A DNA stretch of 29,912 nt, taken from IMG/VR virus record IMGVR_UViG_3300037130_000048, positions 1 through 29,912 of that record. One strand, 5' to 3'. Under the pieces are notes generated by a model. It saw only the letters and a list, made by a program, of their open reading frames with translations, did not search any database and had not been told where the DNA came from. Of the stretch, positions 9,436-19,253 are shown in pieces (the stretch's first letter is position 1; each line of letters opens with the position of its first letter). The position numbers and the translations under genes were made by a program. Source of the stretch: a virus.

Positions 9436-9450
9436 CCGAATTTGCCGCCA

Positions 9451-9478
9451 AAAGGCTCCGCCGATGCGGGGCCTTTTC
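9451..9478 (+). terminator. Intrinsic terminator after the head protease gene
   Basis: AAAGGCTCCGC (9451-9461) pairs with GCGGGGCCTTT (9466-9476) over 11 positions, with one G-U pair, around a CGAT loop; the U run TTTT follows directly. It lies inside the late operon, before the major capsid gene. Confidence 0.85.
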
Positions 9479-9556: not shown

Positions 9557-9584
9557 CTGATCGCTGATTGCTGACCGCTGACAA
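9557..9584 (+). repeat. Tandem heptamer repeat CTGA-Y-Y-G
   Basis: Four 7-base units in a row (CTGATCG, CTGATTG, CTGACCG, CTGACAA) lead into the capsid gene's ribosome-site hairpin. Related CTGATCA/CTGATTT units recur at 18808-18821, and a looser form is at 10879-10893, each upstream of a structural gene. The 172-base gap between 9436 and 9607 holds only the terminator, this repeat and the hairpin; a TTGAAC at 9497 with a poor TATGCA downstream is the only promoter-like pattern. Confidence 0.55.
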
Positions 9585-9586
9585 CT

Positions 9587-9605
9587 GTTTTCTCGGAGGG
9601 AAAAC
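9587..9605 (+). promoter_or_regulatory. Ribosome site displayed in a hairpin loop (major capsid gene)
   Basis: GTTTTC (9587-9592) pairs with GAAAAC (9600-9605), leaving the Shine-Dalgarno core GGAGG exposed in the seven-base loop; the ATG follows at 9608. The same arrangement with the same stem precedes the tail-tube gene (13921-13937). Confidence 0.7.
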
Positions 9606-9607
9606 AC

Positions 9608-10873
9608 ATGAAACTTCGTGAACTTCAAAAGGCCTTAGCCGCGGCCATGGATGCCGCGACTGCCATCGATGCCGCGGTTCCATCCGGTCAGCTTATGACC
9701 GCCGAACAGCGTACCGAGTTCGATACCCATATGGCCACCGTCGCCACGCTCAAGGCCGACATCGCCCGCGCCGAGCAACTCGCCACCATGCAGCGCAGCG
9801 CGCCTTCCATCGAAGTCGTCGCCGATCACTCTGCCGAAAAGCCCTGGGGCTCGATGTTTGAGCAGCTCAACGCCATCCGCACCCATGCGCGCACCCGTGG
9901 CGCCGTCACCGATCCGCGCCTGATGGCCGCATTGGGAGCCAATGAGACGGTCGACGCCGAGGGCGGTTTCCTGGTCGCGCCCGAGTACTCCGCGACGCTC
10001 TGGAGGCGCACCTACGACACGGGCACCATGCTGGCGCGTTGCTTCCAGCAGCCCATGTCGAGCAACCGGCTGGTTATTCCGGCCGTCGATGAAGACAGCC
10101 GCGCAGACGGCAGCCGCTGGGGCGGCATTCAGTCCTTCTATGAGGCTGAGGCCGCAACCTATCAGGGAACCAAGCCGAAGTTCCGGCCCATGACTCTGGT
10201 CGCCCACAAACTCACTGCGCTCATCTATGCGACTGACGAGCTGCTCGATGATGGTCCCGCTTTCCGCAGCTACTGCGACAGTGTTGTGCCGCAGGAACTG
10301 TCCTTCCGTATGGAAGACAACATCTTCAACGGCCCCGGCGCCGGCGCGCCGCTCGGCTTCATGAAGTCCGGCGCGCTTGTCTCGATCGCCAAAGACAACA
10401 ATCAGACCGCCGCGACCGTTACCAGCGGGAACATCTTCGGCATGTGGAAGCGGATGCCGAGCTTCTGTCGGCCCGATTCCGCCTGGTTCATCAACCAGGA
10501 GGCGGAAGACCAACTCTGGAACCTCACTCGCGGGTCCGGAACGGCCGTCGAGCTGCTCTACACCGGGCCCGGCGAACGCGGAAACAACAGCTCGTATGGC
10601 GTCATGATGGGCCGTCCCGTCATTCCCGTCGAGTATGCGGCCGCGCTGGGAACTCCGGGTGACATCGTCCTGGCCAGCCTCTCGCAGTACTGCCTGGCAA
10701 CCCGCGGCGAAGCCAAGGTGGATACCTCCATCCACGTCGCCTTCCTGACTGGCGAACAGGCTTTCCGTTGGCAGTTGCGCCACGACGGCCAGCCCTTCTG
10801 GAAGAAGCCGCTGACTCCGAAGAACGGCACGGCAACACTCTCGCCGTTCGTCGCCATCGCTCAGCGGTCCTAG
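9608..10873 (+). CDS. Major capsid protein, HK97 fold
   Basis: A 421-residue capsid subunit of the HK97 gp5 family (Phage_capsid). The first 100 or so residues are helical and charged (L-R-E-L-Q-K-A-L-A-A-A-M onward), as expected for the built-in scaffolding delta domain removed by the protease upstream. The mature part begins near E-G-G-F-L-V-A-P-E-Y (about 118-127), a typical N-arm motif, and includes the E-loop, P-domain and a late segment with the characteristic F-R-W-Q-L-R. There is no separate scaffold gene, which agrees with a fused delta domain. Translation is probably strong, given the exposed GGAGG in the hairpin loop. A long opposite-strand frame here is a codon-bias shadow. Confidence 0.96.
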   Translation: MKLRELQKALAAAMDAATAIDAAVPSGQLMTAEQRTEFDTHMATVATLKADIARAEQLATMQRSAPSIEVVADHSAEKPWGSMFEQLNAIRTHARTRGAVTDPRLMAALGANETVDAEGGFLVAPEYSATLWRRTYDTGTMLARCFQQPMSSNRLVIPAVDEDSRADGSRWGGIQSFYEAEAATYQGTKPKFRPMTLVAHKLTALIYATDELLDDGPAFRSYCDSVVPQELSFRMEDNIFNGPGAGAPLGFMKSGALVSIAKDNNQTAATVTSGNIFGMWKRMPSFCRPDSAWFINQEAEDQLWNLTRGSGTAVELLYTGPGERGNNSSYGVMMGRPVIPVEYAAALGTPGDIVLASLSQYCLATRGEAKVDTSIHVAFLTGEQAFRWQLRHDGQPFWKKPLTPKNGTATLSPFVAIAQRS

Positions 10874-10892
10874 TTCCCTGATCAATCGTTGA

Positions 10893-10919
10893 TTCCCGGT
10901 CTCCAGGTGAGGCCGGGAA
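10893..10919 (+). other. Strong hairpin between capsid and decoration genes
   Basis: TTCCCGGTC (10893-10901) pairs with GGCCGGGAA (10911-10919), nine positions including one G-U, with a nine-base loop. No U run follows, so it is more likely an mRNA-stabilising or processing hairpin than a terminator. Confidence 0.6.
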
Positions 10920-10971
10920 ACATCGCAACCGTTTCACTCTGCCTTCGCGGGCTGAGAGAGGATAAATCTCC

Positions 10972-11466
10972 ATGGCAAAAGGCTATTACCTTGCCCAGGA
11001 CGGCCACGTCGTCAACGTGCTTCCTCCTGTCGACGTCACGGGCGGCAAAACCAGCCAGGCTTTCAATATGGCCGGAGCCGCTCACGCATCCATCATTCTG
11101 CAGCTCGGCGCCAGCGCGGCCGCGCCCACCGGCGTAACCGTCCAGGCCGGAACGGCCACAGCCGCAGTCGGCGCGGCCGTCGCCGGCGCAGCAGCGATTC
11201 CCTTTGATCTCTTCAAGCAGGAGACGGCGGGCGCGGCCAATGATGTGCTCGGCGCGCGGACTGCCGTCGCCGCGGCGGGGTTTGCGCCTTCCGCAAACGA
11301 CGGCATCTTCTACGTGATCGAGATTGACGGCGACAGTCTGCCCGCCGGCAGCGATTACGTTCAGCTGAACATCGCCAACGGCGTCAATTCGGTCATCGCC
11401 TCCGCCGTCGCCATTCTCTCCGGCCTGCGTTATGCCGGCGAGTCCAGCGCCACCGTAACCGCCTAA
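10972..11466 (+). CDS. Probable head decoration or structural protein
   Basis: A 164-residue protein rich in Ala, Gly, Val and Thr with no long charged stretches. The beginning (Y-Y-L-A-Q-D-G-H-V-V-N-V-L-P-P-V-D-V-T-G-G) reads like a beta-sheet shell protein, the middle is a low-complexity alanine/valine region (about 45-75), and the end is beta-rich. Position directly after the major capsid gene is where decoration or minor capsid proteins usually lie. No family can be named with confidence. A GAGAGGA ribosome site lies upstream of the ATG at 10972. The gene is followed by a terminator-like hairpin. Confidence 0.75.
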   Translation: MAKGYYLAQDGHVVNVLPPVDVTGGKTSQAFNMAGAAHASIILQLGASAAAPTGVTVQAGTATAAVGAAVAGAAAIPFDLFKQETAGAANDVLGARTAVAAAGFAPSANDGIFYVIEIDGDSLPAGSDYVQLNIANGVNSVIASAVAILSGLRYAGESSATVTA

Positions 11467-11480
11467 CAATTGCTTTCGTC

Positions 11481-11514
11481 GGGTGAGTGGCAGGGGCTGC
11501 TCACCCTCTTTTTT
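11481..11514 (+). terminator. Terminator overlapping an alternative ribosome-site hairpin
   Basis: GGGTGAG (11481-11487) pairs with CTCACCC (11500-11506), followed by TCTTTTTT (11507-11514). The segment ACCCTC (11503-11508) can instead pair with GAGGGT (11515-11520), which contains the ribosome site of the next gene. The two pairings share bases 11503-11506 and exclude each other. Confidence 0.8.
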
Positions 11515-11524
11515 GAGGGTTGCC

Positions 11525-11701
11525 ATGTATCTACGTGAAAAAGACGGCCTGTATGCGGGCCAGGTCCGCGATTTTCCGCCTGAAGTGGCAGCGGCGCTGC
11601 TCGCCTCGGGCCGCGCCGAAAATCCCTTTGCTGAAACGAGTCCTGCGCCTGTTCTACCGATTCCGTCCGCGCAAACCCACAAGAAAGGCGGTCGCAAGTG
11701 A
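11525..11701 (+). CDS. Small hypothetical phage protein (58 aa)
   Basis: The ATG at 11525 with GAGGG at 11515-11519 is the natural start; an upstream in-frame codon at 11483 lies inside the terminator and is rejected. The protein opens M-Y-L-R-E-K-D-G-L-Y-A-G-Q-V-R-D-F-P, resembling short phage proteins that sit between capsid and connector genes, then has a helical segment (P-P-E-V-A-A-A-L-L-A-S-G-R-A-E) and a proline-rich, basic tail. The stop overlaps the connector's GTG start by four bases, so it is probably co-expressed with head completion proteins. Role unknown. Confidence 0.7.
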   Translation: MYLREKDGLYAGQVRDFPPEVAAALLASGRAENPFAETSPAPVLPIPSAQTHKKGGRK

Positions 11702-12576
11702 GTGAGTCGCTTGTTTGCATCGTTCCGCCTGCGGCTGAGCCGGTTTCGCTCGACGATTTCCGATCCTTTCTTGAGATCCCCGCGGATGATACCTCGCACG
11801 ACGCCAAACTCTCTTCGCTTTTGGTGGCCGCGCGCGAAGATTGCGAGCGCTACACGCGCACCAAGCTCGTTACGCAGACCTGGCTGCTGCGCACCGATAG
11901 CTTTCCGTCGATCAGTGTCGTCTACGATCGCAACGGCTATCCCAAGCTGCAGCTTCCCTTCCCTCCGTTTCAGTCGATCGACTTCTTCAAATACGTCGAT
12001 ACGGCCGGCGCGGTGCAGACAATTCAGCGTGATACCACGTACGGCAATAACCCCGCCGCGCCTTTCTATGGGTACCAGCTGGAACCGGGCGGCGGCCTGA
12101 TTCCAGCGCGTCTACTTCCAAATTGGGCGCGTCCGTGGGCCCCGCAACGGCTTGTTCCGGCCAACACTATGGTGCAGTTTCGCTGCGGATATGGCGGCCC
12201 GCTCACCGTGTCCGTCGCGGAAGGATCCGCGGCGCTTACTGTTGCCGGCGGATTCACTTTCAATCCGGACGATGCGCCCAACCTCACCGGCGACACGGGG
12301 GCGAAGATCACCGTCACGGGCGCAGGCGCTGAAGGTGCGGACCTGGTCACAACCATCGCCACCGTCGACGCCGAAGGGAACGCCACACTGGCCAGCCCAG
12401 CCGCTGCCGCCGTTGCGGACGTTCCCGCATGGCTCGGCGCGCCAGTTCCCGAGGCGCTTCGCCTTTCCATCATGTTCCAGGCGCAGTTTTTCTATGAGCA
12501 GGGGTCTGCTGTCGACCAAGCCGTTCCCCGCGTGGTTGAAGCGCTTCGCAAATCTTTCAGAAATATGGTGAGCTGA
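11698..12576 (+). CDS. Head-tail connector (gp6-like) with an inserted beta domain
   Basis: A 292-residue protein. Residues 1-168 and 242-292 together match head-tail connector proteins of the phage gp6 group: an N-terminal helical bundle (S-L-D-D-F-R-S-F-L-E-I, then A-K-L-S-S-L-L-V-A-A-R-E-D-C-E-R-Y), a beta section ending V-Q-F-R-C-G-Y-G, and the closing helix V-P-E-A-L-R-L-S-I-M-F-Q-A-Q-F-F-Y-E. These proteins form the ring beneath the portal. About 73 residues (169-241) are inserted between the two parts and look like an Ig-like or tail-spike-type beta module (A-L-T-V-A-G-G-F, then I-T-V-T-G-A-G-A-E-G-A-D-L-V-T-T-I). The GTG start is coupled to the previous stop. Confidence 0.85.
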   Translation: MSESLVCIVPPAAEPVSLDDFRSFLEIPADDTSHDAKLSSLLVAAREDCERYTRTKLVTQTWLLRTDSFPSISVVYDRNGYPKLQLPFPPFQSIDFFKYVDTAGAVQTIQRDTTYGNNPAAPFYGYQLEPGGGLIPARLLPNWARPWAPQRLVPANTMVQFRCGYGGPLTVSVAEGSAALTVAGGFTFNPDDAPNLTGDTGAKITVTGAGAEGADLVTTIATVDAEGNATLASPAAAAVADVPAWLGAPVPEALRLSIMFQAQFFYEQGSAVDQAVPRVVEALRKSFRNMVS

Positions 12577-12577
12577 T

Positions 12578-12961
12578 ATGCCTTCGTATCCTTCTCTCAA
12601 TAACCCTCTCGCCATCAATCCCGGCGAGCTGCGCCACTCGATCACGATTCAAAAACAGAACTCGACCGTCGATGGTTTTGGGGAGCCAGTTTCGACATGG
12701 GAGACGGTAACCTCTCTCCATGCCAAAATCGAAAATACCGGCAGCGCAGCCTACAAACAGAGTTTCTCTGGCAATGCGCTTGCATCGCAGTCCACCGATC
12801 TCATCACTACCCGTTGGGCCGGCCCGACGATCAATATCGAGCCCGGCATGCGTATTGTGTTTGGCGATAACACCTACACTATCCAGGCCGTCGACAACGT
12901 TCTGCGCCGCAATCGTGTTATCCGCATGGCCTGCCTGGTTATCGATGGCGACAGCAACTGA
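12578..12961 (+). CDS. Head-tail adaptor (joining) protein
   Basis: A 127-residue protein of the phage head-tail joining type (SPP1 gp16-like). The diagnostic opening is present: P-G-E-L-R-H-S-I-T-I-Q-K (about 16-27), then D-G-F-G-E-P-V-S-T-W-E-T-V, followed by a beta-barrel region including I-E-P-G-M-R-I-V-F-G-D-N-T-Y-T-I. These proteins close the connector and dock the tail. The gene starts one base after the connector stop and overlaps the next ATG by one base. Confidence 0.9.
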   Translation: MPSYPSLNNPLAINPGELRHSITIQKQNSTVDGFGEPVSTWETVTSLHAKIENTGSAAYKQSFSGNALASQSTDLITTRWAGPTINIEPGMRIVFGDNTYTIQAVDNVLRRNRVIRMACLVIDGDSN

Positions 12962-13467
12962 TGGCCGATGAAATCGAACTGCGGATCGATACGCGCGAAA
13001 TGGAGCGTGCTCTGAAGGATCTACCGAATAAGCTTCTCAAGGCCATCATGAGCGGTTCGCTGCAGGCCGCTGGGGATGTGATGCTCGAGGCCGTGGTAGC
13101 GCATACGCCAGAGCGCACCGACGAGGAAACGCCGGAGCAAACCTCTTTACCTCCTGGCATCCTCAAGGCCGACATGCACACCGAGGTCCAATTCTCGCGG
13201 AAATACGGCACCGCCCGCGTCAAGGTCGGTCCCAGCCGCGCCATCGGCGGCCTGGTCGCGTACCGCGTCAACAATGGCTGGACACTCACCGGACACGGCA
13301 AATCGGCGCGCAAAATCCGGTCGATTCCCGGAAAGCACTTTCTTGAGGCGGCTTTCGATGAGTCGGCGCAGGCTGCCATCGATGTTTTTATTGACGATTT
13401 GGGCAACTCACTCGGCTTTGGCGAAGGGGCCATGCCTGAGGGCGAACATAGCCAGGAGGCGGACTGA
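12961..13467 (+). CDS. HK97-gp10-family tail completion protein
   Basis: A 168-residue protein with the usual gp10 pattern: an N-terminal helix around L-K-D-L-P-N-K-L-L-K-A-I, a central segment A-H-T-P-E-R-T, and a beta region A-R-V-K-V-G-P-S-R with a later G-K-H-F-L-E-A-A-F-D motif. It is thought to take part in joining tail to head. The acidic C-terminal tail (G-A-M-P-E-G-E-H-S-Q-E-A-D) has no known role. Start and stop overlap both neighbours by one base. Confidence 0.88.
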   Translation: MADEIELRIDTREMERALKDLPNKLLKAIMSGSLQAAGDVMLEAVVAHTPERTDEETPEQTSLPPGILKADMHTEVQFSRKYGTARVKVGPSRAIGGLVAYRVNNGWTLTGHGKSARKIRSIPGKHFLEAAFDESAQAAIDVFIDDLGNSLGFGEGAMPEGEHSQEAD

Positions 13468-13865
13468 TGTTGATCGATGGCATTCGCGCACTGCTGCTCA
13501 CCCAATCCGCAATCACTTCGGTTATCGGAAATCGGATTCAGCCGATTCCGGCACCGGTCGATCTTTCGCAGTATCCGCTGATCACCTACCAAAGCCCCAG
13601 CGATATAAGCCAGAACGCCGGCGATGGGCCGGTGGGCGTTGCGGAGATGCGCATCGTCTTCGATTGTTTGGCGCAGGATTACGCCACGGCGCGCACCTTG
13701 GCGCAATCGCTCAAAGCAATTCTCAACAGCTACTCCGGCGTGTTGCCGGATTCGGGAAGCACTCGGGTCTATCTTGCGGAATCCGCCAACCTCGCCGATC
13801 GCTGGGAGGACGGCAGCAAAATCCACTGCACATCCTTCCACGCGCTGATCACGTACGGCGACTAA
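13467..13865 (+). CDS. DUF3168-type tail terminator protein
   Basis: A 132-residue protein with the family opening I-R-A-L-L-L-T-Q-S-A-I-T-S-V-I-G-N-R-I and the downstream P-L-I-T-Y-Q-S segment. Members resemble lambda gpU, which caps the growing tail tube and stops its polymerisation. Order in the operon (adaptor, gp10-like, terminator, tube) is canonical. The ATG at 13467 overlaps the upstream stop by one base. A 14-base perfect palindrome lies in the gap after the gene. Confidence 0.88.
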   Translation: MLIDGIRALLLTQSAITSVIGNRIQPIPAPVDLSQYPLITYQSPSDISQNAGDGPVGVAEMRIVFDCLAQDYATARTLAQSLKAILNSYSGVLPDSGSTRVYLAESANLADRWEDGSKIHCTSFHALITYGD

Positions 13866-13886
13866 TTTTCAACCCGAATCGGTTTT

Positions 13887-13900
13887 CGGCTGGCCAGCCG
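13887..13900. repeat. Perfect 14-base palindrome
   Basis: CGGCTGGCCAGCCG is its own complement. It lies in the 75-base gap before the tail-tube gene and could fold as a short hairpin or bind a dimeric protein. No U run follows. Confidence 0.6.
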
Positions 13901-13920
13901 GCAATCGATCCTTGACGACT

Positions 13921-13937
13921 GTTTTCAGGAGGAAAAC
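13921..13937 (+). promoter_or_regulatory. Ribosome site displayed in a hairpin loop (tail-tube gene)
   Basis: GTTTTC (13921-13926) pairs with GAAAAC (13932-13937) around the loop AGGAG, so the Shine-Dalgarno sequence is presented in the loop; the ATG is at 13941. The preceding bases (TTGACGACT) also match those before the capsid gene (CTGACAACT). Confidence 0.7.
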
Positions 13938-13940
13938 ACG

Positions 13941-14408
13941 ATGACGGCAAGCAAAGGCTTCACAGGCAAGGGAACAATCTTTTCCATCGGCGTCGCGGGA
14001 TCGCCTGAAACGTTCACCGCGGTCGCCCAGGTCAAGACGCCGCAGCTCAGCGGCCAAAAGGCCTCGTATGACGACATCACCAACCTCGATTCGCCGCAGT
14101 CCGGCGCAGCCATCGTTGAAGAGGCGCTGCCTGCCAAGATGTCACCGGGCGAGATTGCCCTGGCTGGCATCTTCCTGCCCGGCGATGCCGGTCAGACGGC
14201 GCTGGGCTCGGCCTTTGCCTCCCAGGCCCTCACCGACTTCAAGCTGCAGCTCCCCAAGGCTCCCGGACAAACCACCTCCGGCAATCTCTACGCCTTCTCG
14301 GGCTATGTCCAGGACTATCCGGCGCCGGAAGTCTCCTTCGACAAGACGGTTACTTTCAAGTGCACCATCAAGCTCAACACGCTCCTCACCGTCACCCCGG
14401 GCTCTTAA
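13941..14408 (+). CDS. Major tail tube protein
   Basis: A 155-residue beta-rich protein in the position of the tail tube. It opens K-G-F-T-G-K-G-T-I-F-S-I-G and has the family-like segments A-Q-V-K-T-P-Q-L-S-G-Q-K, Y-D-D-I-T-N-L-D-S-P and V-T-F-K-C-T-I-K-L-N, the last resembling the final strands of tail-tube folds. Hundreds of copies make the tube around the tape measure, which agrees with the strong exposed ribosome site. It is followed by a 133-base gap with two strong hairpins and then the tail chaperones, as expected. Confidence 0.9.
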   Translation: MTASKGFTGKGTIFSIGVAGSPETFTAVAQVKTPQLSGQKASYDDITNLDSPQSGAAIVEEALPAKMSPGEIALAGIFLPGDAGQTALGSAFASQALTDFKLQLPKAPGQTTSGNLYAFSGYVQDYPAPEVSFDKTVTFKCTIKLNTLLTVTPGS

Positions 14409-15269: not shown

Positions 15270-16148
15270 ATGGAAACCGGTCCAGATTTTGTTGTTATTG
15301 ACGTCGAAACTGCCAATGCTGATCTAGCGAGCATCTGTCAGGTTGGCCTCGCATCTTTCCGCGGCGGCGAACTGGTAGACGTATGGTCATCACTGATCAA
15401 CCCTGAGGATGAGTTCAGTCCTGTCAATGTCGCCATCCATGGGATCGGCGAAGAAAGTGTAAAAGGCGCTCCATCTTGGTCAGATGTGCTTCCGGATATT
15501 ATTTCTAGGCTGGAAGGGCAAATTGCTGTTTGCCATACGCCATTTGACCGCATAGCGGTAATGCGCGCCTGTGCGCGTTACGATCAGGCTATATGGCAAT
15601 GTAGATGGCTCGATTCGGCGCGAGTAGTAAGAAGGGCATGGCCAGCCTTCTCAAGATCAGGTTATGGGCTGCTCAGCATGGCCGCGCATTTTGCCATAGA
15701 ATTTCGGGCACATGATGCGCTTGAGGATGCACGGTGTGCTGGATTGCTTCTGCTCAGGGCAATGGCCGAAACTGGCCTCAATCCCGAAGAGTGGCTCGTT
15801 CGCATAGAACAGCCAATTGATTTAACCGTTCCACGGAACCTCAAAATCAGACGGTTTGGTAATCCAGATGGTGAGCTTTTCGGAGAGGTTCTTGTATTTA
15901 CCGGGTCTCTATCGACACCTCGTAGTGAGGCGGCAGATGCCGCGGCCGCGGCTGGATGCCGCGTGGATACCGGAGTCTCAAAACATACAACGATGCTCGT
16001 AGTTGGAGACCTTGATTTGCGAAGATTGAACGAAAGCGAAAAGAGCTTGAAGCAGATGAAAGCCGAGCTCTTGATAAGCAAAGGACAACCAATTCGCATT
16101 CTTGGCGAGAAAGATTTTCTGCGGGTTATATCGCTTTCGACTGAATAG
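15270..16148 (+). CDS. DnaQ-like 3'-5' exonuclease fused to a BRCT domain (moron)
   Basis: A 292-residue two-domain protein unrelated to tail assembly. Residues 6-170 form a DEDD exonuclease: Exo I with Asp11 and Glu13 (V-I-D-V-E-T-A), Exo II with Asp93 (H-T-P-F-D-R-I-A) and Exo III with His148 and Asp153 (H-D-A-L-E-D-A-R), so all acidic metal ligands and the general-base histidine are present (DEDDh type). Residues about 201-287 are a BRCT domain (G-E-V-L-V-F-T-G-S-L, then A-A-A-A-G-C-R-V, then T-T-M-L-V-V-G-D), usually a phosphopeptide- or DNA-end-binding module. Its own promoter and lower G+C (one row near 16021 is 45%, against 70% near 14161) mark it as inserted cargo. A DNA-repair or defence role is possible. 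Confidence 0.9.
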   Translation: METGPDFVVIDVETANADLASICQVGLASFRGGELVDVWSSLINPEDEFSPVNVAIHGIGEESVKGAPSWSDVLPDIISRLEGQIAVCHTPFDRIAVMRACARYDQAIWQCRWLDSARVVRRAWPAFSRSGYGLLSMAAHFAIEFRAHDALEDARCAGLLLLRAMAETGLNPEEWLVRIEQPIDLTVPRNLKIRRFGNPDGELFGEVLVFTGSLSTPRSEAADAAAAAGCRVDTGVSKHTTMLVVGDLDLRRLNESEKSLKQMKAELLISKGQPIRILGEKDFLRVISLSTE

Positions 16149-18807: not shown

Positions 18808-18821
18808 CTGATCACTGATTT
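18808..18821 (+). repeat. CTGA heptamer pair in the gap after the tape measure gene
   Basis: CTGATCA and CTGATTT stand back to back, echoing the units at 9557-9584. Further on, CCCGC/GCGGG (18826-18830 and 18842-18846) and GGTCT/AGACC (18845-18849 and 18854-18858) are small inverted repeats next to the ribosome site GGAG before the ATG at 18861. Confidence 0.45.
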
Positions 18822-18860
18822 CTGGCCCGCGATCTCTGATTGCGGGTCTCTGGAGACCTC

Positions 18861-19253
18861 ATGCCTCTTATCACCATCGCCAGCGTCGATATCGCCGGAT
18901 GGCAGGGGAATGCCTCGGGCATTTCACTGCGCATCTACGCCAACCAATCTTTCACGGCGCAAAGCGGGGACATTATCCCGCGCAGCGTGCTCGCGAATCC
19001 GGCCAGCCTGGGGACGTTTTTCAAGTCCGTTGCGTGCACGGTTGCCAGCGGCGTGCTGACGATTCCGGCGGTCACGCTCGATTCCACCGTCGACAGCACC
19101 GACAATCCCGACGCGACCTATTCGGCCGTGTTTTGGGATGGCACTTCGAATCTCCCGATCCAGACCTTTGGGCATCGTGGCCAGTTCCCGGTTCCTGTAT
19201 CTCCAACACCTACCACTTGGGCGGCCTTGTTCGCCACGGAGGCAAATCAGTAA
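18861..19253 (+). CDS. Hypothetical tail-associated protein (130 aa)
   Basis: The ATG at 18861, just after GGAG, is preferred over an upstream in-frame codon at 18840 that lies before the ribosome site. The protein is beta-rich with many Ser, Thr, Ala and Asp (I-T-I-A-S-V-D-I-A-G-W-Q-G-N-A-S, then L-T-I-P-A-V-T-L-D-S-T-V-D-S-T-D), consistent with a small domain of a fibre or spike complex. No catalytic motif is visible. It overlaps the spike gene by one base (TAATG), so the two products are probably made together and may interact. Confidence 0.7.
   Translation: MPLITIASVDIAGWQGNASGISLRIYANQSFTAQSGDIIPRSVLANPASLGTFFKSVACTVASGVLTIPAVTLDSTVDSTDNPDATYSAVFWDGTSNLPIQTFGHRGQFPVPVSPTPTTWAALFATEANQ

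Follow-up and report, generated by a model that had tools for sequence, protein, structure and literature searches.

A heptad array joined to a Shine-Dalgarno hairpin: a recurring leader and probable structured ribosome binding site in a phage lineage and some host chromosomes

The leaders of the major capsid and major tail (tube) protein genes in a 29,912-base phage sequence (IMGVR_UViG_3300037130_000048, an entire IMG/VR virus record, here called the window) belong to a recurring element that occurs in a group of uncultured phages, whose hosts are probably soil Acidobacteria, and at some genes of these bacteria. In this element a small hairpin stands immediately after an array of degenerate heptads, CTGAYNN; the hairpin loop, in many copies GGA and nothing else, holds the Shine-Dalgarno (SD) core, and the start codon comes a few bases later. 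On sequence evidence we consider it moderately likely that this element, referred to below as the module, is a recurring structured ribosome binding site. The recurrence of the module, the fixed order of its parts, the compensatory changes in its stems and the membership of both window copies can be read from the sequences compared, and from these we infer that the hairpin acts in the messenger RNA at the start of translation.

The two leaders of the window

The capsid leader reads CTGTTTTC-TCGGAGG-GAAAACAC-ATG(9608) and the tube leader reads CTGTTTTC-AGGAG-GAAAACACG-ATG(13941). An earlier sequence-only reading of this DNA had placed stems with the SD core in the loop at 9587-9605 and 13921-13937, and these positions are correct; both stems lengthen by one T-A pair to a perfect 7 base pairs (9586-9606 and 13920-13938). 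The flank that it had described as shared, TGAC-R-ACTGTTTTC, is indeed found on both leaders (two exact matches), and it is the end of a degenerate heptad array, (CTGAYNN)n-CTG, which that reading had overlooked. The parts are as follows.

9557..9587, plus strand: heptad array CTGATCG CTGATTG CTGACCG CTGACAA CTG, that is, (CTGAYNN)4-CTG
9586..9592, plus strand: 5' arm TGTTTTC of the capsid-leader hairpin
9593..9599, plus strand: loop TCGGAGG of the capsid leader, with SD core GGAGG
9600..9606, plus strand: 3' arm GAAAACA of the capsid leader, which doubles as the spacer between SD and start
9608..10873, plus strand: major capsid protein gene (phrog_10, E 1.8e-35)
13905..13921, plus strand: decayed heptads TCGATCC TTGACGA CTG preceding the tube hairpin, aligned to the heptads of model R1 (see below)
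13920..13926, plus strand: 5' arm TGTTTTC of the tube-leader hairpin
13927..13931, plus strand: loop AGGAG (5 nucleotides) of the tube leader, the SD core
13932..13938, plus strand: 3' arm GAAAACA of the tube leader
13941..14408, plus strand: major tail (tube) protein gene (phrog_158, E 1e-16)

Because the period of the array is seven, its TGA triplets (at 9558, 9565, 9572 and 9579) fall in all three frames and place a stop in each. At minimum free energy the capsid stem can extend to as many as 9 base pairs around a GGA triloop, an arrangement from which the tube copy, with its 5-nucleotide AGGAG loop, departs. The inverted repeat GTTTTC-N3..12-GAAAAC occurs twice in the window where 0.02 occurrences are expected, and none of 100 shuffled sequences reaches two. 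A scan over all gene starts in the window agrees with the statement that no other gene has such a leader, for stems of at least 6 base pairs. The capsid hairpin is predicted to pair with a probability of 0.76-1.0 in every context tried, and the tube hairpin with 0.13-0.82 depending on context. Folding energy alone, which is weak evidence, is unexceptional for the two window leaders (z of -1.59 and -0.10).

Recurrence and pairing in other phages

A strict pattern (heptad plus CTGTTTT...GGAG...AAAAC) finds 15 contigs among 2.9 million viral contigs, each time directly before an ATG frame, with five of the 15 sharing one near-identical stretch. When the inner stem is loosened there are 38 stretches; judged by eye, those with true arrays keep the pairing in other letters (GTTTCGC/GCGAAAC, GTTTTGC/GCAAAAC), with GTTTCGC/GCAAAAC as an intermediate between those two paired stems, whereas those without arrays are mostly unpaired. 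Altogether the composite leader is found in more than 20 viral contigs, many of which have structural genes in common with this phage, and arrays of the same type lie immediately 5' of the hairpins in other phages. At least three structural genes are shared with the window by L221, L222, L223, L226, L228, L232, L233, L383, L387, L391 and L227 (on the L094 contig), all of them retrieved by DNA pattern alone; L224, L225, L230, L231 and L261 have no structural gene in common with the window at E 1e-5.

A covariance model, R1, was built from 11 leaders of other phages and contains no window sequence. Its only matches in the window below E 0.1 are the two leaders, at 9571-9610 (E 1e-8) and 13905-13943 (E 5.6e-5). 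Across 46 chosen loci it gives 51 matches at E<=0.05, a count that includes the model's own sequences and overlapping loci. A possible weak third copy in the window precedes a gene at 18861:

18808..18858, plus strand: heptads CTGATCA CTGATTT (18808-18821) and hairpin GGTCT[CTGG]AGACC (18845-18858)

This candidate has a pairing probability of at most 0.06 and an R1 match that is not significant (E 0.22); the homologue of the 18861 gene in L233 has a strong module.

Pairing was also examined with a pattern of heptads, GGAG and ATG on which no pairing is imposed, which matched at least 119 stretches. Once the window and identical copies were excluded, the contigs concerned yielded 107 unique sites, from which the 99 with an open frame were kept and eight dropped. 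Among the matches listed, 12 of these 99 heptad leaders have a stem of -7 kcal/mol or lower with the SD in its loop; swapping the 3' halves between leaders gives a mean of 3.0 and a maximum of 10, so that 12 is reached in none of 3000 swaps. The hairpin is thus present in roughly one heptad leader in ten. Fourteen distinct triloop stems are 92.9% paired (68.4% when shuffled), a percentage inflated by their preselection as hairpins. The variety of pair types is unaffected by that preselection: six of the seven pairs have changed on both sides, and covariation stands at 0.606 against 0.172 on shuffling and at most 0.243 on sliding. Variants of the stem include GTTTTGC/GCAAAAC, GTTTCGC/GCGAAAC, GTCACC/GGTGAC and AAAACC/GGTTTT. 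As the pairing is kept while the letters change, the shape of the RNA seems to matter, and the covarying stems identify the leader as an RNA hairpin and probably as a structured ribosome binding site.

Hairpin and heptads go together in other samples as well. In 386 distinct arrays, a set that includes contigs retrieved by the module pattern, 17 are followed by a stem of at least 6 base pairs with an SD-like loop (0.8 in shuffles) and 12 by such a stem with a non-SD loop (about 5.7). Among 65 leaders of head-tail adaptor genes gathered by protein homology, the hairpin is present in 7/10 with strict heptads and 4/55 without, in a split counted by eye and with a C-A mismatch in one of the seven. 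When all GGAG genes on the contigs of the pairing-free pattern are taken together, the association is modest (10/69 with heptads, 22/364 without, p 0.019); one reason is that false frames and decayed arrays are present in the group without heptads. Most copies have stem energies of about -4 to -7.7 kcal/mol, and three mismatched or short ones -0.8 to -2.3 kcal/mol; stems in the former range are within what ribosomes can open.

Two further leader arrangements were seen. In L229, L319 and L094, heptad-like arrays are followed by GCTCC[RAA]GGAGC, which has the SD in the stem and not in the loop. In a second phage group (L256, L304, L255, L264 and L247), genes of the tail region are preceded by long ACTGATCA/ACTGATTA arrays with no SD hairpins.

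Genes behind the module in phages and hosts

The window encodes terminase, portal, protease, capsid, connector, tail tube and tape measure proteins, together with a helix-turn-helix gene and a phage integrase. A scan of 20 proteins from behind the module with PHROGs, in which several came out as unknown, gives major capsid, major tail, head maturation protease (L228, L313), head closure (L285) and tape measure (L225) proteins, and most commonly the head-tail adaptor (L224, L233, L254, L321), which is a low-copy protein. The proposal that the module marks the two most abundant structural genes is thus not supported, as relatives carry it at adaptor, protease, head closure and tape measure genes and hosts at housekeeping genes, and its presence at both capsid and tube appears to be an accident of this one phage.

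The same genes in relatives give a mixed picture. A search of a phage collection returned 32 records for the capsid, all below 60% identity, and three for the tube. The capsid relatives L003 and L004 are identical; L005 (70%) has GGTTTTCC[AAGGA]GGAAACC after a decayed array, L065 (70%) lacks such a hairpin, and L094 (45%) combines four clean heptads with GTTTTTC[GACGAAGGA]GAAAAAC. The tube homologue of L285/L319 (about 35%) has GTTTTTCC[GGA]GGAAAAAC, and L321, one of the tube-relative phages, carries the module at its adaptor gene instead. Conservation at the same gene was rejected as a rule on the capsid and adaptor leaders, adaptor hairpins being mainly in heptad leaders. Copies of the module inside one phage often differ (L094/L296, L313, L285), and the likeness of the two window copies may therefore reflect membership of one family. 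The suggested origin by duplication is possible, but with such differences within phages it is neither needed nor demonstrable.

The host of this phage is probably an acidobacterium, because its best bacterial capsid matches (L021 and L022, 59%) are metagenome-assembled genomes (MAGs) of Acidobacteria. In G001, the MAG that holds L021, a pattern of three heptads plus CTG has 124 matches, against 19 for the reversed pattern, and the arrays adjoin SDs and gene ends in both orientations. Heptad arrays occupy non-coding gaps in some Acidobacteriota. The same pattern has any match in six of 26 other genomes, with a large count in two Gemmataceae only. These Gemmataceae genomes, G390 and G392 (of L044 and L047), have many CTGAYNN arrays, and in G390 minus- and plus-strand arrays often stand back to back within tens of bases, like divergent-gene spacing.

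The strict pattern is absent from 297 genomes of the phylum. R1, run on 298 genomes of the order of G001, gives 24 matches in 20 genomes at E<=0.01 per genome, where about three are expected, and the idea of a phage-only element was rejected on those 20. A scan for starts resolved 11 of 19 new host loci, with ribosomal protein L10 appearing four times; the names assigned from NCBIfam, one protein each, are L10, Zwf, NadC, ArgH, GcvPA, L14, GroEL, MsrB and thymidine phosphorylase, while the L10 label of L414, L422, L423 and the rplJ-set leaders, and some other host names, rest on likeness by eye. Host hairpins include TGTGC[GGA]GCACA at L10 and GGTCCC[GGA]GGGACC at GcvPA. In genomes with arrays the L10 leaders pair in varied letters (TGTGC/GCACA, TTGTGC/GCACAA, TGTC..GC/GC..GACA, TGCC..GC/GC..GGCA), and the related leaders L429 and L430 show no such fold. 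Among L426-L432 are rplJ leaders of some Acidobacteriota that carry arrays together with GGA hairpins whose stems covary, G-A rich internal loops being present in some; in the rplJ set the start was located in 16 of 30 loci, and that of L435 is apparently misplaced. A genome-wide host habit was rejected for two 400-kb host stretches picked regardless of leaders. In this phage lineage the module is dense, but hosts rarely carry it.

Other features of the window concern its context. An inverted repeat outside the module lies between the protease and capsid genes:

9450..9477, plus strand: terminator-like inverted repeat AAAAGGCTCCGC-CGAT-GCGGGGCCTTTT, read from the sequence

It has A and T tracts and is missing from the output of the terminator scan, whose rule requires five T after the stem. 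Its presence suggests that the capsid transcript may start separately or arise by read-through. The scan of the window for promoters found none, and there were no matches in it to Rfam leaders at gathering score. A gene for an RNase_T-type exonuclease (15270-16148), between the small tail genes and the tape measure gene, resembles inserted cargo.

Possible roles and relation to known systems

In the structured ribosome binding site that we propose, the heptads would be a non-coding landing stretch, and their stops in all frames would allow the gene to initiate independently of the preceding one; 30S subunits would bind the array and capture the SD when the weak stem opens. Such leaders would suit genes that follow intergenic gaps, where there is no translational coupling, rather than abundant proteins as such. 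A gap of at least 40 nucleotides precedes 16 of 18 module genes and 53 of 112 others.

Several results weigh against this proposal. The gene starts and gaps just given come from a simple purpose-made finder, and two of the gaps are clearly too long. The predicted energy for opening the SD is 3.2 kcal/mol for the 18 module genes and 3.7 kcal/mol for the 112 genes with neither heptads nor hairpin (p 0.39); the opening energy of the initiation region and upstream unpairedness (an unpaired fraction of 0.50 with the module, 0.43 in the others, p 0.21) likewise show no significant difference, so that these predictions reveal neither a better display of the SD nor a clearly free landing stretch. Among the matches listed, 87 of the 99 heptad leaders are without a hairpin of the kind scored. 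Of 105 capsid leaders of relatives, one has a hairpin at p<0.02 and 15 at p<0.1. The four closest tube relatives (L010-L013, 65-69%) have short leaders with no hairpin; conservation in relatives thus extends to the module in the lineage but not to its position at a gene. GGA triloops are no commoner than chance would give in the two 400-kb stretches of host sequence (1/123 and 0/118 GGAG genes).

The sequence-only reading had interpreted the module as a cassette for high expression of the two most abundant structural genes, perhaps duplicated from one to the other. The module is a real and reused leader, with its pairing kept in other phages, and it stands at capsid and tube in the window, at the L285/L319 tube genes, at the capsid genes of L005 and L094/L227, and in hosts at rplJ and rplN. 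It does not seem, however, to be tied to abundant proteins, as its commonest gene is the low-copy adaptor and it also precedes protease, head closure and tape measure genes, and copies in one phage often differ. That the energy for opening the SD equals that of other genes, with an SD that is often just GGAG, argues against a simple enhancer, and we regard such a cassette as quite unlikely. We think it very improbable that the hairpins are functionless by-products, in which heptad slippage and template switching yield small perfect inverted repeats and an A-rich SD spacer lies opposite a T-rich stretch. Hairpin-less arrays are common in the non-coding gaps of some hosts, GTTTT/AAAAC predominates among the stems, and hairpins with non-SD loops also follow 12 of the arrays; but the excess over shuffles is far greater for SD-like loops (17 against 0.8) than for these (12 against about 5.7), stems of very different composition (GTCACC/GGTGAC, AAAACC/GGTTTT) still have the SD core in the loop, and the strict-pattern sites are all directly before a start codon.

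A repressor or ribonuclease acting in trans, which would read the unpaired GGA in its small loop and switch the structural genes together, is unlikely in our estimation but would account for several features: many loops consist of GGA alone, the fourth G being part of the closing pair; a single phage has the module at several genes; and loop and position stay constant while the stem letters vary freely. Most of the searches used, however, required GGAG, and some copies have other loops (TCGGAGG in the window, GACGAAGGA in L227). CsrA/RsmA proteins, the best-known readers of GGA loops, bind hairpins that present GGA over SDs, and the module is like their targets in having GGA in a hairpin loop that overlaps the SD; the CsrA family (PF02599) was found in none of 10 acidobacterial genomes in which controls were found. 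The ribonuclease RegB of T4 has the consensus GGAGRAYARAA, is hindered by structure and has early leaders as its targets (PMC3014915). Its structural preference strikingly matches the triloop stems, with GGAG in a leader, GGA unpaired and the fourth G constrained; but RegB spares late T4 transcripts (PMC3014915), and the module genes are late genes. We would give a small chance to a broader possibility, in which the module is a mobile, convertible start cassette common to an acidobacterial phage lineage and to a small number of host operons (rplJ among them), all controlled together as a regulon by a single factor, of host or phage, that recognises GGA in a small loop. If this were true, the phage would tie its virion assembly genes to a host translation signal.

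Returning to the structured ribosome binding site, its two parts each have known counterparts. Direct repeats of the heptamer TAACTGA occur in Beggiatoaceae, Cyanobacteria and Bacteroidetes; they are mostly intergenic, in forward orientation and just 5' of start codons, place stops in the forward frames and have been proposed to act in translation (MacGregor 2015, PMC4679880). Like them, the heptads of the window and the other phages are tandem 7-nucleotide units, intergenic and forward to the start, and (CTGATAA)n fits CTGAYNN; but the unit there is fixed, whereas here it varies at three positions (CTGATCG, CTGATTG, CTGACCG, CTGACAA) and none equals TAACTGA. Few TAACTGA regions (about 10%) have a canonical SD, and predictions show no secondary structure in them, whereas here the SD lies in a hairpin loop and is phage-borne; that work mentions neither Acidobacteria nor phages (PMC4679880). 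By this comparison the heptads appear to work like TAACTGA repeats and are not a member of that class. In standby-site initiation, as at E. coli tisB and related genes, the 30S subunit first binds single-stranded RNA 5' of a structured ribosome binding site (PMC7708055). In those systems the binding site is sequestered and the standby site lies about 100 nucleotides upstream; in the module, by contrast, array and hairpin are contiguous, the loop holds the SD, and the array is not predicted to be significantly less structured than usual.

Searches of open-access literature gave no description of a leader joining heptads to an SD hairpin, and although structured ribosome binding sites and pre-start heptamers are both known, their union as a reusable cassette seems new. 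Structured start sites are usually met singly, whereas this architecture stands before many genes of a phage lineage and some host genes, and since its pairing is kept and its letters are free, its copies form a natural set in which to ask how an SD in a loop acts. It also gives pre-start heptamer repeats, an old puzzle, a concrete partner element, and suggests that unrecognised signals may be at work in the translation initiation of Acidobacteriota, a major soil phylum that has been little studied.

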